A DNA stretch of 64,000 bases from Fulvivirgaceae bacterium JP3-4. GTDB taxonomy: Bacteria > Bacteroidota > Bacteroidia > Cytophagales > Cyclobacteriaceae. Made by a program: the position numbers and the translations under genes. Position 1 is the first letter of the stretch, and each line of letters starts with the position of its first letter. The notes under the pieces were generated by a model. The model made no database searches, was not told the origin of the DNA, and was given only the letters and a program-made list of their open reading frames with translations. The stretch covers positions 992,001 to 1,056,000 of the forward strand of contig JARKND010000005.1 in assembly GCA_029309925.1 (NCBI GenBank), given 5' to 3'. This document shows positions 42,806 through 50,039 of the stretch, one piece after another.

Positions 42806-42848
42806 AACCAAATCTCAAACATTTGTACACTCTGTTTGAGATTTGGTT
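42806..42848. repeat. Perfect 15-bp inverted repeat upstream of the satellite
   Basis: AACCAAATCTCAAAC (42806-42820) and GTTTGAGATTTGGTT (42834-42848) are exact reverse complements around a 13-base loop. The right arm runs straight into the heptamer satellite. The related phrases ACCAATGACCAATAACCAAAT (near 42723) and ATTTGGTCATTGATCATTGG (near 43068) flank the region. Confidence 0.75.
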
Positions 42849-43013
42849 ATTGATTATTGGTTATTGATTATTGGTTATTGATTATTGATTATTGATTATT
42901 GATTATTGATTATTGATTATTGATTATTGATTATTGATTATTGATTATTGATTATTGATTATTGATTATTGATTATTGATTATTGATTATTGATTATTGA
43001 TTATTGATTATTG
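42845..43013. repeat. Heptanucleotide satellite (TGATTAT)n, about 24 copies (gap 42688-43100)
   Basis: A 7-base unit TGATTAT/ATTGATT repeats without interruption from about 42846 to 43013. The first few units carry TGGTTAT variants and the rest are identical. There are no spacers and no coding potential. The satellite lies upstream of deoC and downstream of the minus-strand gene at 43101-43472. Its near-perfect state implies recent slippage or strong homogenisation. Confidence 0.95.
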
Positions 43014-43100: not shown

Positions 43101-43472
43101 TCAATGCCGTATCCCACACTCCTTGCAGTACCTCATCTTCCCCGGTTTTCTCTTCTTGGGTGGTTTCTTGTGACCGAAATACATTGGGTCGGAATACTGC
43201 GGTTTCATGGCAAGCTTTTCGTTCTTGCGCTTTGTCTTTTCAAGTTCTTCCATCCGATCGTAAAATTCCCGCTCTGAAGTGTAGGTGGGTCCTTTGCTTT
43301 GCTTGCGCGATGCTTTCGGAGCGTATACTTTCTGACTTTCTCCCGGATTGAGCGCAGAGGGTTGTTCAACCGGGGTCTTGGCCGATTTATTCTTCTTCTT
43401 TTTCTTTGATTGCCCGTACGACACCATAGCTACGGTCAGAAGCAACATTAATATAAAGCAACGTTTTGCCAT
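43101..43472 (-). CDS. Secreted Lys-rich small protein of unknown function
   Basis: 123 residues. A signal peptide (MLLLTVAMVSYGQ) is followed by a polylysine run (SKKKKKNKS), a charged linker, and a C-terminal CKECGIRH motif preceded by a basic KKPPKKRKPGK segment. The CxxC could bind zinc or form a disulfide. No family is recognised. It would be very basic and could bind nucleic acid or polyanionic surface material (inference). It is separated by about 98 bases from the downstream end of the nuclease-like gene on the same strand. Confidence 0.65.
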   Translation of the reverse strand: MAKRCFILMLLLTVAMVSYGQSKKKKKNKSAKTPVEQPSALNPGESQKVYAPKASRKQSKGPTYTSEREFYDRMEELEKTKRKNEKLAMKPQYSDPMYFGHKKPPKKRKPGKMRYCKECGIRH

Positions 43473-44297: not shown

Positions 44298-47200
44298 CTA
44301 TTTACAGTAGTTGTCGAGTTGAAACCTGGCCTTTGCATCGCCAAATTCAACCGCCTTGCGCCAATCGAAGCAAGCTTTGTCTTTCTGTTCGATGCGATAG
44401 TAAAAATTGCCGCGCTGTTTATAGAACGATGCATTCTTTGGCTCTATTTTAATCGCTTCATCGAGATCCGAAATTCCGGCACCCGGATCTTCAAGCGCAG
44501 CTTTACACGTTGCGCGATTGTAGTACGCGATCGCATCCGTTGGATTGAGCGCAATAACTTTGTTGTAGTCCGCAATAGCACTTTCGTAATCTTCGATGGC
44601 TTCTTTAATTAAGGCACGGTTGAAAATGGCATTGAAATTCTTAGGATCCAGATCCACGGCCTTGTTCAGTGCTACCACGGCATTTTTCGTATCTTCAACA
44701 GCGAGGTAAGCACGGCCCATGTTGAGGTAAAGCTCAACTGTTGCAAGGCCTGCCTTCTGTGCATTTTCAAAATCTTTCAGTGCGGCTTCATTGTCCTGAC
44801 TCTCGATCAGCATCAGTCCGCGCTTATAGAACACATCTTTGTCTTTAACTCCGGCTGAAATGATCTTGTCAAAATACTCGAGGGCCGGAGCGTACTTCTT
44901 TGCGTTGTAATAGCTCTCGCCCAGCAGTTGAAGTAAAGCTGTCTCCGGTTTCTCGGAGAGCTTTTCAACCATCCGGAAATCCTTTGAAGCTTCATCGAAT
45001 TTTTCCGTTTTATAGTAAGTCATCCCGCGGTTTTCATAAGCCTTCGCATATTCGGGATTTCTTGAGATCGCGGCTGTGAAATCAGGAAGGGCAGCGCTGT
45101 AATTCTCAAGCTGATAATATGCCTTGCCACGGTTATTGTACAACACGGCATCCTTTACACCCAGCGTAATGGCCTGGGAATAGTCTTCAATCGCAGCGCT
45201 TGCATTTCCGGTCACGAATTTTGCATCGCCTCTGTGGAAGTATGCGGATCCAAGTTTGCCATCGCGGGTGACGGCTTCAGTGAAGTCTTTCAGTGCTTCG
45301 TCATAGTTTTTTGATTCGTACTTGCAATAGCCACGCATATCGAAAGCCAGCGCGTCTGTTGTTCCTGTTTGAATTGCCTTGTCGAGATCCGCTTGTGCAG
45401 CTTTGTAATCCTTGAGAAAAAATTCACAGGTTCCCTTTCGGTAATATAGTTCGGCACCGGTTTCACCCATTGAAATTGCTTTGGCAAAATCCGGTATAGC
45501 TTTGTCGTATTGTTTGGTTTCAAAATAGGAGAATGCTCTGCCCACATACACCAGTGGATCCTTCGATGCACCTTCAATTGCCTTCGTCAGGTCCGGAATT
45601 GCCTTGTCGTAATCTTTCATCATATATCGCGAAACACCGAGGTAGGTGAAATCATCCGTTACACCTTCTCCGCGTGCTACCACGATCGCCTCGTCTGCAA
45701 TGACGCCTGCATAATCTTTCAATTGATATTTTGCCGCTCCACGGTTCTTTAAAGCCTGCGTATAATCCTTTTTAATTCCCAGGGCGCGGTCAAAATCAGC
45801 AACCGATTCGCTGATCAATCCTGAATTGAGTTTTGCTTTACCGCGATTGTTAAAGACCAGTTCATGATTTGCTCCAAGCGCTATCGACTTATCGTACGAT
45901 TCAATCGCGCCTGTAAGATTGTTTTGTCTGAACCGCGCATTTCCAAGCTGGAAATAAATTTCATTGTTCTTGCTTTCAAGCTGCGCAGCTTTTTCGAGAT
46001 GGGGAATTGCTTCCTTCTCCTTTTGTGTCGCCAGGTAAGACAATGCGAGCGCTTCGTATGCCGAAAGGTCTGCCTTTAGCTTGATTGCTGACTTTTCAAG
46101 GTCCGTGATCGTGGCTGCATAATTCTTCTGTTCGTGAAAGGCCTTACCGCGCTTCAGATAGAGATCATCCTCTTTTTCGCCTGCAGTCTCCGCGGCCACC
46201 AGCGCATCCGTTGTGCCTTTAAAATCTTTTTTGTCAAATCGCAGGTAGCCGAGGTAAAGCGCAACTTTGGCATCTTTCTCGCCTGCCTTGAAAGCCTTAT
46301 CAAGGTTAGCGAATGCCTGCTCGGAATTTCTGACCATATAATAAGAGATTCCGAGCGTCCTGATGAGGTCTGCACTTTCACCTTCCGTGCCTTTTGCTTT
46401 TTCAAGATCGGTTGTTGTTCCGGCAAAATCATTCAACGCATATTTTGCGTAGCCGCGGTTCAGATAAGCCTTGGTGTAGTCAGCTTTGAGCTGAATTGCC
46501 TTATCATAGTCAGGCACTGCACCAGAGAAATCTTTCAGGTTTGCCTTTGCTTTGCCGCGATTATTGAAAACTACCGCGTCTTTCTGATCGAGTTCAATCG
46601 CTTTGTCGTAATTTTTAATTGCATTGGCGAAGTCGCTCTTTACGAAGTAAAGGTCTCCCAGAATTTTAAACGCTTCCAATTCTGATGCGCCCATCCCAAC
46701 AGCCTTTTCGAGATCGCTCAGCGCGAGATCACCAGATTTTTGAAAGTTGTGCGAATAGCCGCGGTAAAGAAATACTTCCTTCGTGTTGATGCCGGCTGAG
46801 ATCGCCTTGCTCAGGGACTCAACTGCGCCCGCGTACTCTTTGTTTCGATACTGACAGGTTCCCAGCTGATTGAATACATCTTTATCCGCAACCCCCATTG
46901 ACACCGCATTTGACAAGTTTTTAGCAGCCTCAACACAATTCCCGTTTGCAGCATGGCTCAGTCCGAGCATCCTGAAAACATCTTTATCTTTAATAGCTTT
47001 TTGAACCAGCTTGTCGAAGGTGCTTGCTGCGTTTTTAAAATCGTTCAGTGAGAAATACGCTGTGCCCAACCGTTGCAAAAGGTCGTTTTCCGTCTTGCCT
47101 TTGGCGATCAGCTTCTCAAGATCAGACGCGGCATTCTTCCAGTCTGCATTTTTATAATACGCATCGGCTCTGTTTTCGAGGGCTTTGTCATAATCCGGTT

Positions 47201-48485
47201 TCAGTTCAAGTGCTTTTGTGAAATCACCGATTGCCCCGGCATATTCTTTCAGGTTCGATTTCGCCTTCCCGCGGTTGTTGTACACTACGGCATCGTTGTT
47301 CTGAAGTTTGATCGCTTCGTCATAAGCCTTTACGGCACCGGCAAAATCATTTTTCGTGAATTTGATGTCGCCCACATTGCGGAAGGCTACCGCATCCGAG
47401 AGGCCCATCGCTATGGATTTCTCGAGGTCCTTTAATGCGTTGTCGTTGTCTTTCTGCTCAACTTCGGCTGTGCCTTTGTACCAGAATACTTCTTTCGTGT
47501 TGATGCCTGATGCAACGGCACGGCTAAGCGATTCAATCGCAGGAGCAAACTCCTTATTCTTGAACTGACATACCCCCAGGTTGTAAAAGACATCCTTTTC
47601 TGTATCGCCCAGGGAAACTGCTGAAGCCAGGTGCTTTGCGGCTTCTGAGCAGTCACCAAGGTAGGCAAGACTCAGGCCGAGCATGCGAAACACGTCTTTG
47701 TCCTTCACACCTTTTTCAACCACTTTTTTCATCTTCTCGGAGGCCGACTTGTACTCCTTCAACGCAAAGTGAGACGTGCCCGTCTTTTGAAAAATTTCCG
47801 TGTCTGTTCGCCCCGTGCTGATCAGCTTATCGAAGTCTTCAATGCTTCCTTTCCAGTCCTGGAGCTTAAAGCGTGTCTCGGCCCGGTTCTCGTACGCCTT
47901 ATCGTAATTCGATTTCAGTGCAATCGCCTTGTCAAAATCGGAAAGCGCGCCTTTCAGATCCTGCACATTGAATTTTGCTTTTCCGCGGTTATTGAACAAA
48001 ACAGCGTCTTCCTTGCTCGCGAGTGCCTTGTCGTAGTAGATGATGGCATCCTTAAAATTATCCATGCGAAATTTTGCATTTCCAAGGTTGGCATATGCAT
48101 CGAAGCTCTTCGCTCCCAGGCCGATGGCTTTTTCAAGATCAGTGGCAGCTCCCTGGTAGTCGTCCAGCACATACTTCGTGTTCCCCCGGAATTCAAACAG
48201 CTCGGCAGAATTTATGCGCGCTTTCAACGCTTCATCAAAGTCTGTTTTCGCTTTTTCGTATTCTTTTAATTGGTAATAGGCTACGCCACGTTTTACAAAA
48301 ACTTCCTTGTTGGCAAAACCCGAGTTGATGAGCTGCGTGAAGCCCAGGGTTGCATCATTGTATGCGCCTGCATTGAGTTTTTTAAGTGAAGCTTCCCACT
48401 GGACGTTCAGCAGGGAATCAGCTCTCTGCGCAACGGCAGCATGGAGGATCAGAACGCAAAGTGCGGTGAGGCAGGTAACTCTCAT
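44298..48485 (-). CDS. Giant exported TPR protein with 238-residue super-repeats
   Basis: 1395 residues from the ATG at 48483-48485 (MRVTCLTALCVLILHAAVAQ, a signal peptide). An ATG four codons upstream (48497) is only about 5 bases from the predicted transcription start, so the inner one is preferred. The protein is TPR repeats of 34 residues almost end to end. Landmark NNRGKA recurs every 238 residues exactly (seven TPRs) five times, counted from residue 169 of the longer form, giving four full super-repeats plus a fifth, degenerate one. No catalytic domain is seen. It is probably a periplasmic or surface scaffold. Confidence 0.9.
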   Translation of the reverse strand: MRVTCLTALCVLILHAAVAQRADSLLNVQWEASLKKLNAGAYNDATLGFTQLINSGFANKEVFVKRGVAYYQLKEYEKAKTDFDEALKARINSAELFEFRGNTKYVLDDYQGAATDLEKAIGLGAKSFDAYANLGNAKFRMDNFKDAIIYYDKALASKEDAVLFNNRGKAKFNVQDLKGALSDFDKAIALKSNYDKAYENRAETRFKLQDWKGSIEDFDKLISTGRTDTEIFQKTGTSHFALKEYKSASEKMKKVVEKGVKDKDVFRMLGLSLAYLGDCSEAAKHLASAVSLGDTEKDVFYNLGVCQFKNKEFAPAIESLSRAVASGINTKEVFWYKGTAEVEQKDNDNALKDLEKSIAMGLSDAVAFRNVGDIKFTKNDFAGAVKAYDEAIKLQNNDAVVYNNRGKAKSNLKEYAGAIGDFTKALELKPDYDKALENRADAYYKNADWKNAASDLEKLIAKGKTENDLLQRLGTAYFSLNDFKNAASTFDKLVQKAIKDKDVFRMLGLSHAANGNCVEAAKNLSNAVSMGVADKDVFNQLGTCQYRNKEYAGAVESLSKAISAGINTKEVFLYRGYSHNFQKSGDLALSDLEKAVGMGASELEAFKILGDLYFVKSDFANAIKNYDKAIELDQKDAVVFNNRGKAKANLKDFSGAVPDYDKAIQLKADYTKAYLNRGYAKYALNDFAGTTTDLEKAKGTEGESADLIRTLGISYYMVRNSEQAFANLDKAFKAGEKDAKVALYLGYLRFDKKDFKGTTDALVAAETAGEKEDDLYLKRGKAFHEQKNYAATITDLEKSAIKLKADLSAYEALALSYLATQKEKEAIPHLEKAAQLESKNNEIYFQLGNARFRQNNLTGAIESYDKSIALGANHELVFNNRGKAKLNSGLISESVADFDRALGIKKDYTQALKNRGAAKYQLKDYAGVIADEAIVVARGEGVTDDFTYLGVSRYMMKDYDKAIPDLTKAIEGASKDPLVYVGRAFSYFETKQYDKAIPDFAKAISMGETGAELYYRKGTCEFFLKDYKAAQADLDKAIQTGTTDALAFDMRGYCKYESKNYDEALKDFTEAVTRDGKLGSAYFHRGDAKFVTGNASAAIEDYSQAITLGVKDAVLYNNRGKAYYQLENYSAALPDFTAAISRNPEYAKAYENRGMTYYKTEKFDEASKDFRMVEKLSEKPETALLQLLGESYYNAKKYAPALEYFDKIISAGVKDKDVFYKRGLMLIESQDNEAALKDFENAQKAGLATVELYLNMGRAYLAVEDTKNAVVALNKAVDLDPKNFNAIFNRALIKEAIEDYESAIADYNKVIALNPTDAIAYYNRATCKAALEDPGAGISDLDEAIKIEPKNASFYKQRGNFYYRIEQKDKACFDWRKAVEFGDAKARFQLDNYCK
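45138..47993 (-). repeat. Four consecutive 714-bp in-frame super-repeats within the TPR gene
   Basis: Units begin at 47993, 47279, 46565 and 45851 (minus strand) and each encodes exactly 238 residues starting NNRGKA. A fifth, degenerate unit starts at 45137. The first two share the longest identical stretches (KDKDVFRMLGLS, SGINTKEVF), so they are the youngest pair. Each unit is seven 34-residue TPRs. Confidence 0.85.
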
Positions 48486-48507
48486 ATTCGATAGCATTGT
48501 AGGACAA

Positions 48508-48711: not shown

Positions 48712-49509
48712 CTACCCCTTTTTAACCTCTCCTTTCACCTGCATCGTTTCCATGGTTGGGGAAGGCTTTCCACCCCGCGGTTCAACAGTTACTGCAAAAA
48801 GAACCGCACCCTTGTCAACTGATTTCATTTTGTGAAGCCCCGCAAAGTTCCCGTCAAACACTCCGGCATCAACTGGTTTACCGTCAATGATAGCCCACAA
48901 CTGATACTGGTTGTCACGTGCAAGCTCTTTCATGTTCTGAATACTGAGATAAACTTCCTTCGTCTTCTCATTCCAGTAAACGGACGCCATCGCCCCGGGA
49001 GCGTTCGGTGTGCCCGTCATGATCACACGCTGGAAATTCGGATTATCCATCACCTTCAGATCATTTTCCATGCGATCGATCCGCTCATTCACCTGATTGT
49101 AGTCCTGAGCGATTTTCTGATTCTGAGCGACAAGCGTTGCGAGGTTCGATTCGCTTGCTTTCCATCGCTCATAATACATAAAGGCGAAGTACGAGGCGAC
49201 AATCGCGATTGATATTGATGCTGCTGCGGCCAGACGCCAGAATGAGATTTGTCGGCCCTTATTAAGCTCAGCAACGCTGGCTGATTGCTTACCGATCCGC
49301 TCTATCAACCCGGCCCTGACAGAAGCAGGCGGGATAACAGCAGCCTTCAACAGTAATCGTTCCTGCGCATCTTCAATGCGGTTGAGTTCGGCCATCAGTT
49401 CCGGATAGGCAAGCAGGTCTTTTTCGACCTCAGCTTTCTCCTTTTCTGACAGCTCGCCCAAAGCGTACGCTTCGAGAATGCCGGACGATATGTATTCTGA
49501 CAAATTCAA
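48712..49509 (-). CDS. RskA-like anti-sigma factor
   Basis: 265 residues. An N-terminal zinc-finger-like/ASD helix bundle (1-75: EAYALGELSEKEKAEVEKDL) without the HxxxCxxC metal site, one membrane helix (about 92-112), a coiled coil (about 115-150), and the periplasmic RskA C-terminal domain (about 155-262: GAMASVYWNEKTKEVYL, YQLWAIIDGKPVDAGVF). It should bind the ECF sigma factor encoded just upstream, with which it overlaps by four bases (ATGA). RskA homologues respond to envelope stress by regulated proteolysis. Confidence 0.9.
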   Translation of the reverse strand: MNLSEYISSGILEAYALGELSEKEKAEVEKDLLAYPELMAELNRIEDAQERLLLKAAVIPPASVRAGLIERIGKQSASVAELNKGRQISFWRLAAAASISIAIVASYFAFMYYERWKASESNLATLVAQNQKIAQDYNQVNERIDRMENDLKVMDNPNFQRVIMTGTPNAPGAMASVYWNEKTKEVYLSIQNMKELARDNQYQLWAIIDGKPVDAGVFDGNFAGLHKMKSVDKGAVLFAVTVEPRGGKPSPTMETMQVKGEVKKG

Positions 49510-50039
49510 CGTACTCCTAAAGTTGATCGTAATTGTTGCATCGCGAGCCGTAACCGGGTTTTTACAGTGCCGAGCGGAATATTGAATTCCTCTGCGACCT
49601 CCGACTGCGAATAACCTTCAAAATATAATTTTTCGACAATAAACTTTTGTTCTTCGGGAAGTGGTTTTAGAATATCTTTCACGCCAATGCCTTCAACACG
49701 CTGTTCAATATACTCCTGGTTGTCGATTTTACTTACGACATTCCCGATGCCGCTGGTTTTCTTTTCCTTGTTTATTTCTTTCGACCGCGTCTTATCGATG
49801 GCGTGATTGCGTGCGATGTTCAGCATCCATGTAAACAATCTGCCTTTCGAAGTATCGTAGCTTTCGATCTTGTCCCAGATTTTTACAAAAACGTCCTGCA
49901 GAATTTCCTCCGCTACGGGTTCGTTTCTGACGATCCGAAGGATCACACCGAACAGCGCCCCTGAGTAGTGGTCGTATAGGTATGACAGCGTTGCTTTGTC
50001 GCGCTTGCGAAGGCCCGCGACAAGTTCTGCTTCTGATAT
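49506..50039 (-). CDS. ECF sigma-70 factor lacking a standard start codon
   Basis: About 177 residues. Regions 2 and 4 are clear: YLYDHYSGALFGVILRIVRNE, EEILQDVFVKIWDKIESYD, GRLFTWMLNIARNHAIDK, and LPEEQKFIVEKLYFEGYSQ with GTVKTRLRLAMQQLR. The conserved N-terminus (SEAELVAGLRKRDKATL) extends 31 codons upstream of the first GTG (49946), which falls inside region 2. The frame upstream contains only ATA (50039) and ATT (50057) where ATG is expected, then a TAA. I place the start at ATA 50039, preceded by GGAAAA. The anti-sigma gene overlaps its end. Confidence 0.85.
   Translation of the reverse strand: MSEAELVAGLRKRDKATLSYLYDHYSGALFGVILRIVRNEPVAEEILQDVFVKIWDKIESYDTSKGRLFTWMLNIARNHAIDKTRSKEINKEKKTSGIGNVVSKIDNQEYIEQRVEGIGVKDILKPLPEEQKFIVEKLYFEGYSQSEVAEEFNIPLGTVKTRLRLAMQQLRSTLGVR

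Follow-up and report, generated by a model that had tools for sequence, protein, structure and literature searches.

We analyzed a 64,000-nucleotide stretch of the genome of Fulvivirgaceae bacterium JP3-4 (contig JARKND010000005.1, positions 992,001 to 1,056,000), hereafter the window, which encodes a protein of 1399 amino acids (aa) consisting of ~40 tetratricopeptide repeats (TPRs). The TPRs follow a period of seven, which is retained in most relatives; relatives differ in length by whole blocks of seven TPRs, and each block displays one conserved polar site. We give about even odds to the reading that this protein is a secreted or periplasmic solenoid in which seven TPRs are the evolutionary, and probably also the structural, unit, and which would act as a multivalent scaffold with one putative site per superhelical turn.

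The open reading frame (ORF) lies on the minus strand of the window, at 48497-44298. Its score against TPR_1 (PF00515), 406.5 bits for a cut-off of 27.8, and the rows of 34 residues into which its sequence falls in register identify it as a TPR protein. An earlier reading of the same DNA (the original prediction) had named the same ATG at 48497, although the limit that it gave for the gene, 48485, ends 12 bases before that ATG. Visual inspection of the translation suggests a likely Sec signal peptide at residues 1-24 (48426-48497), ending in AAVAQ, and no lipobox was seen by eye in the N terminus.

A seven-TPR period and the history of the blocks

The mature part of the protein, as laid out in register, begins with a partial block of four TPRs (residues 33-168; 47994-48401). 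This is followed by four blocks of seven TPRs each, A (residues 169-406; 47280-47993), B (407-644; 46566-47279), C (645-882; 45852-46565), and D (883-1120; 45138-45851), and then by block E with the C-terminal end (1121-1399; 44301-45137), in which the first two TPRs are in register and the remainder is shifted by +1. The hexapeptide NNRGKA opens all five blocks, at residues 169, 407, 645, 883, and 1121, and all its spacings are 238, exactly as had been predicted. The four "exact" super-repeats of the original prediction need amending, since we find a partial block before A followed by five blocks, the fifth of which goes out of register by one residue, and since only the spacing is exact, whereas the ungapped identities among blocks A-D are 28-54% (aa). 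A and B are the most similar pair, with 54% identity at the aa level and 58% in the unit comparison at the DNA level that had been proposed, and they share the stretches KDKDVFRMLGLS and SGINTKEVF/AGINTKEVF, as was originally stated. The remaining A-D pairs are 28-33% identical. Block E shows 13-16% ungapped identity to the others, a low value that is due to the one-residue shift after its second TPR. The A-D identities, together with the age of the block types described below, rule out recent exact copying of one unit.

Over the 34 in-register TPRs, those that lie seven, or a multiple of seven, TPRs apart have an identity of 0.275. Shuffling the order of the TPRs lowers this to 0.203 (standard deviation 0.010), and no shuffle among 10,000 gave a value as high. 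In a scan of the whole protein (lags 5-1099), the best lag was 238.

Relatives were searched for in 295 genomes of the same family, 114 of which (from 37 of 84 genera) contain a match at E ≤ 1e-40, and in 390 genomes across the order, where 22 have a match, three of them outside the family. The nearest relative among 14 named loci, with 69% identity, is in Chryseosolibacter histidini. We compared 103 proteins: the window protein (G000 in block comparisons), 101 from the other 113 matching family genomes, and one from outside the family (G026); here and below, G, L, and g label genomes, loci, and genera. The best ORF was taken per locus, L195 yielded no ORF, a second, partial locus of G004 (L063) was excluded, and a few of the proteins are truncated at contig ends. 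The most similar TPR of the blocks, the anchor, was identified with a profile made from 63 anchors of 13 among these proteins.

The spacing of successive anchors is exactly 238 in 200 of 265 cases, and in 150 of 214 when the 13 proteins used to train the profile are set aside. When the best lag (60-459) was determined without anchors in the 101 proteins of at least 900 aa, it was 238 in 59 proteins, equal to two or three TPRs (68 or 102) in 38, and different from all of these in 4. An anchor-free test on the order of the TPRs placed seven on top in 87 of the 103 proteins, some of them weakly, as judged by the quartiles of the z score at seven (z7; 2.2, 4.7, and 7.3). Consistent with this, TPR counts cluster at 33, 40, and 47, as well as at 31 and 38. 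For controls, 18 loci of other long TPR proteins were fetched, in which the scan detected five ORFs of 14 or more TPRs; z7 was ≤ 1.0 in all five, and because the TPR profile of the scan was built from the family of the window protein, it may miss TPRs in them. ORFs of 3517 and 2878 aa (L251 and L253, in G661 and G712) have 34 and 33 recognised TPRs in rather uniform arrays (mean TPR identity ~0.46) without a seven-TPR period.

Many relatives have four, five, or six anchors, and in others three or fewer are recognised. Where the C-terminal end is complete and the last anchor was recognised, the distance between the two is 277-281 residues in most relatives, although exceptions exist. The number of units in relatives, a check that the original prediction had proposed, differs by whole blocks, even within a genus. 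In genus g47, G240 has 1408 aa and 5 anchors compared with 1648 aa and 6 anchors in G118, and in genus g28, G270 has 1182 aa and 4 anchors compared with 1406 aa and 5 anchors in G250 (all lengths being those of stop-to-stop frames). Since congeners differ by whole blocks in both length and anchor number, gain or loss of blocks did occur. We thus find both hallmarks of multi-domain block expansion, i.e. a peak at a multi-repeat lag and a copy number that changes by that block.

Comparison of individual blocks shows where some of these changes lie. The single first block of G191 matches both A (64%) and B (62%) of the window protein, block 2 of G270 is matched by both block 2 (71%) and block 3 (73%) of G250, and blocks 1 and 2 of G271 are 77% identical. 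We also built a tree of 143 blocks taken from 30 selected proteins. In it, blocks that occupy the same position in different species mostly group together, with clade-specific doublings in addition. Blocks 2 and 3 of G250, a doubling of the positional type of block C, are sisters (support 0.98); a g44 clade holds both first blocks (blocks 1 and 2 of G045, G173, G115, and G150; 0.989); and the g47 first blocks form a clade (0.994). The placement of A and B of the window protein with relatives that have four blocks has a support of just 0.40. A purity test of the block classes failed, which we ascribe to labels that are wrong where the last anchor was missed (e.g. in G045 and G173). As judged from these sequence comparisons, the block types are old and positional and occur in much of the family, the one younger pair in the window protein being A and B. 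Repeated duplication of a seven-TPR block, as originally predicted, therefore holds as regards the unit and the changes by whole blocks, but not as regards a single, recently copied unit.

A conserved polar site at TPRs 7-1-2 and the predicted superhelix

The seven TPRs of a block are not equivalent. As assessed on 65 non-redundant blocks of 200, the TPR that stands furthest apart from the rest is TPR1, and TPR2 and TPR7 come next. Block types were compared in 46 of the 103 proteins, the other 57 being dropped because of fewer than four anchors, odd spacing, or an odd tail. The fraction of inner-face positions common across block types I-III is highest in TPR1 (0.62), followed by TPR7 (0.28) and TPR2 (0.27), and is 0.11-0.24 in TPRs 3-6.

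A search with an alignment of 23 TPRs showed that HOP, SGTA, PP5, and RPAP3 match best on or about TPRs 7-1-2. We take the clamp residues of HOP to be K5 and N9, N6, and K2 and R6, over three consecutive TPRs. When the TPR 7-1-2 triplet was used as query, the matched letters of HOP displayed N9, N6, K2, and R6, while K5 was not visible. We counted clamp residues in 150 TPR 7-1-2 triplets from 41 proteins and in the six other registers. TPR7 N9, TPR1 N6, and TPR2 K/R2 occur jointly in 67 of the 150 triplets but in none of the 150 of any of the six other registers, and at least three of the five clamp residues are found in 107 triplets, compared with at most 4 elsewhere. Taken singly, N6 is present in 149 triplets, K/R2 in 113, and N9 in 103, and the position of the clamp R6 is occupied by Asn (TPR2 N6) in 145. 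TPR7 N9 and TPR2 N6 lie outside the profile used to find anchors, and their counts are hence not circular. These counts point to one conserved polar site per block, which resembles part of a HOP-type carboxylate clamp and which the other registers lack.

An AlphaFold2 model of residues 407-1188, computed with five relatives, displays 46 helices over 23 TPRs with a mean predicted local distance difference test score (pLDDT) of 93.7, as expected of a helical solenoid. Among the 50 Foldseek matches listed of 1708, the model matched long TPR solenoids, including chains of Ski, Ctr9, and OGT complexes. By analogy with published TPR structures, it is plausible that one block corresponds to one superhelical turn. 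In the excerpts available of these papers, the TPR domain of OGT makes two complete superhelical turns (PMC10618255) and its TPR numbering reaches 13.5 (PMC8586251).

If seven TPRs do make about one turn, the TPR 7-1-2 sites would line up, one above the other, on one side of the inner groove. Each clamp-like Asn9-Asn6-Lys2 site might then grip an extended peptide or a chain end, and the protein would act as a multivalent scaffold, its number of turns determining how far it reaches. We propose that gains of whole blocks would be retained because sites and superhelix then stay in phase. With gain and loss of whole blocks and one polar site per block, the protein resembles a ruler that has docking points at even intervals. 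A ladder of ligand sites was already part of the original prediction; we infer it as well, with the one conserved polar site per block, read from alignments, as added support. A more far-reaching version is that the family grows and shrinks mainly by whole turns, selection keeping the phase and one clamp-like site per turn on one face, so that it forms a ruler or ladder of species-dependent length; this we consider tentative and rather doubtful.

Points against and alternative readings

Several observations weigh against the reading of the seven-TPR block as a structural unit with one site per turn. Other periods in orthologues, named in the original prediction as what would speak against it, are found in a minority (16 of the 103 proteins do not have seven on top). 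Seven g76 proteins (1065-1074 aa) are without the first anchor and the ~3 TPRs that their congeners G182 and G257 have in addition, a gap of 441-442 residues (13 TPRs) is present in G035 and the g66 proteins, spacings of 682-683 and 248 occur in G014, G037, and the g82 proteins, and G004 has a period of six. In view of these counter-examples, seven is the rule rather than a law. The controls are few, and one of the five (L254) also has seven on top, with a z score of 1.0. The clamp is incomplete, with R/K6 in none of the 150 triplets and K/R5 in just 40, so that the site is not a carboxylate clamp in the strict sense, and the counts of N6 and K2 of the anchor are partly circular because both are inside the anchor profile. 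In the window protein itself, N9, N6, and K2 occur together at block A alone, blocks B, C, and E carrying Asp at position 9 and block D Gln at position 2. As for the fold, the predicted template modeling score (pTM) of the AlphaFold2 model is 0.52, which makes its long-range geometry weak. No PDB chain superposes well over its length among the 50 Foldseek matches listed of 1708, OGT (6eou) aligning over 331 columns at a root mean square deviation of 9.1 Å and CTPR8 (8chy) over 271 columns at 6.5 Å. Published TPR solenoids, by the parts of their descriptions available, would have about seven but also eight TPRs per turn.

The strongest competitor, a possibility that we put clearly short of even, is historical accident: the duplication in an ancestor happened to cover seven TPRs, after which unequal recombination between similar blocks can yield nothing but multiples of seven, without any selection on geometry. 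In eight of nine proteins examined, high self-similarity at lag 238 sets in at the anchor TPR or the one after it (the ninth, G118, has no sharp edge), which fits unequal recombination seeded there, and expansion by several domains at once is described in other repeat families in the part of PMC1553488 available. What such an accident leaves unexplained is that the TPR 7-1-2 site is kept in block types that have diverged, whereas TPRs 3-6 drift.

Somewhat less probable, in our view, is a turn of about eight TPRs rather than seven, in which case the sites would wind slowly round the axis and would not stack. Designed consensus TPR proteins (CTPRs) have eight TPRs per turn, according to excerpts of PMC7885266 and PMC12079352, and our model aligns to CTPR8 (8chy) with a TMt of 0.68. 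The natural superhelix of OGT, on the other hand, has about seven per turn by the descriptions excerpted from PMC10618255 and PMC8586251.

Concerted evolution, in which gene conversion rather than independent duplication makes sister blocks alike within a clade, is improbable as the whole explanation. It would account for the g44 clade that unites first and second blocks, and it draws on the weak placement of A and B in the tree, but the whole-block differences between congeners argue against it: gene conversion could add to the clustering of blocks, not to differences in their number. Finally, that NNRGKA is merely a common TPR consensus with chance spacing, as might be suggested by matches of the TPR 7-1 stretch ~68 residues apart in a G020 protein, which show that such TPRs fit other spacings, is rejected for this family as next to impossible by the shuffling test and by the 87 of 103 proteins with seven on top.

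What follows depends on which reading holds. Were a block to equal a turn, the family would offer a natural series of four, five, and six turns linking solenoid geometry to copy number, and would provide a scaffold ready for use, with natural binding sites at regular intervals. Were seven a relic of recombination, it would still be a clear bacterial case of a TPR solenoid that expands block by block. Among the papers listed in searches of the open-licence PMC literature, none showed a bacterial protein with a seven-TPR super-repeat.

Neighboring genes and known systems

The genes near the TPR gene, counted in the loci of 102 relatives, hint only weakly at its function. Directly upstream, on the same (minus) strand, lies a sigma/anti-sigma pair (48712-49946), which could control the TPR gene. 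It consists of an anti-sigma factor (RskA_C; 48712-49509), which accompanies the TPR gene in 19 of 102 loci, and an extracytoplasmic function (ECF) sigma factor (49506-49946), which is upstream on the same strand in 18; a 19th ECF sigma match, in L060, lies far away on the opposite strand. Downstream on the same strand, an SNase-like nuclease (PF00565; 43571-44077) with an apparent signal peptide recurs in this position in 44 of 102 loci, which is a lower bound because the loci end at different distances. The SNase is encoded (E ≤ 1e-20) in 72 of the 295 genomes, 65 of which are also among the 114 with the TPR protein (E ≤ 1e-40); in G115, the two genes are ~120 kb apart on one contig. A dedicated partner system was not supported, as the co-occurrence of the SNase is confounded by descent and the genes are separated in G115.

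Further along on the minus strand, a small Lys-rich protein (43101-43472), apparently secreted and without a Pfam match, is present in 38 of 102 loci. Its conserved C terminus, YFGHK followed by KYCKECGIRH, ends with CGIRH or CGLRH in the window and in 21 relatives among the sequences listed (39 aligned). As it occurs (E ≤ 0.001) in 176 of the 295 genomes compared with 114 for the TPR gene, it is not tied to the latter. Between the Lys-rich gene and a DeoC-like gene, there is an array of 24 copies of the heptamer TTGATTA (42843-43013); shorter runs of it exist elsewhere in the genome, and none in the ten relatives' loci checked.

Visual inspection revealed an extra N-terminal domain (the first 200 residues) before the TPRs in a distant subfamily of relatives (L056, L058, L059, L062, L154, L159, and L163). 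Three of them were scanned: L062 matches PF13365 (trypsin-like) with 28.1 for a cut-off of 27.6, and L056 and L058 have no match. What we take to be the trypsin-type triad, His, Asp, and Ser, looks missing by eye, and this might be a dead protease domain, as far as its sequence suggests.

None of the named NCBIfam TPR families was retained for the window protein. Scores were below cut-off for the type IX secretion system protein PorW/SprE (52.3 versus 250) and for the OmpA-like CHU_0125 (89.5 versus 620). MamA (337 versus 200), PilW (246.8 versus 154), and LcrH/SycD (180.6 versus 104.8) scored above theirs, but these scores sum many TPR stretches over 1399 aa for models of 136-234 positions and are thus read as a generic TPR signal.

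Known systems each share part of this architecture. Nebulin is a eukaryotic actin-binding protein. Like the window protein, it has a seven-module super-repeat and, as autocorrelation showed, was expanded mainly seven domains at once (Bjorklund et al. 2006, PMC1553488, in the part available), but its module is another one, whereas the window protein is a bacterial TPR solenoid. OGT also forms a long TPR superhelix, in whose lumen an Asn ladder holds the peptide backbone (excerpts of PMC10618255 and PMC8586251). Its TPRs, by the same excerpts, run to 13.5 and are joined to a catalytic domain; the window protein has ~40 TPRs, no enzyme domain was found in it, and its conserved Asn is concentrated once per seven TPRs. 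The designed CTPRs (8chy/8bu0), among the best sequence matches, are TPR superhelices as well, yet with a period of a single TPR by design and, as far as the accessible parts of their descriptions go, eight TPRs per turn. The clamp proteins HOP, SGTA, PP5, and RPAP3 share Asn9, Asn6, and Lys2 in three consecutive TPRs with the window family, which differs from them in having Asn in place of R6, in mostly missing K5, and in a site that recurs in every block.

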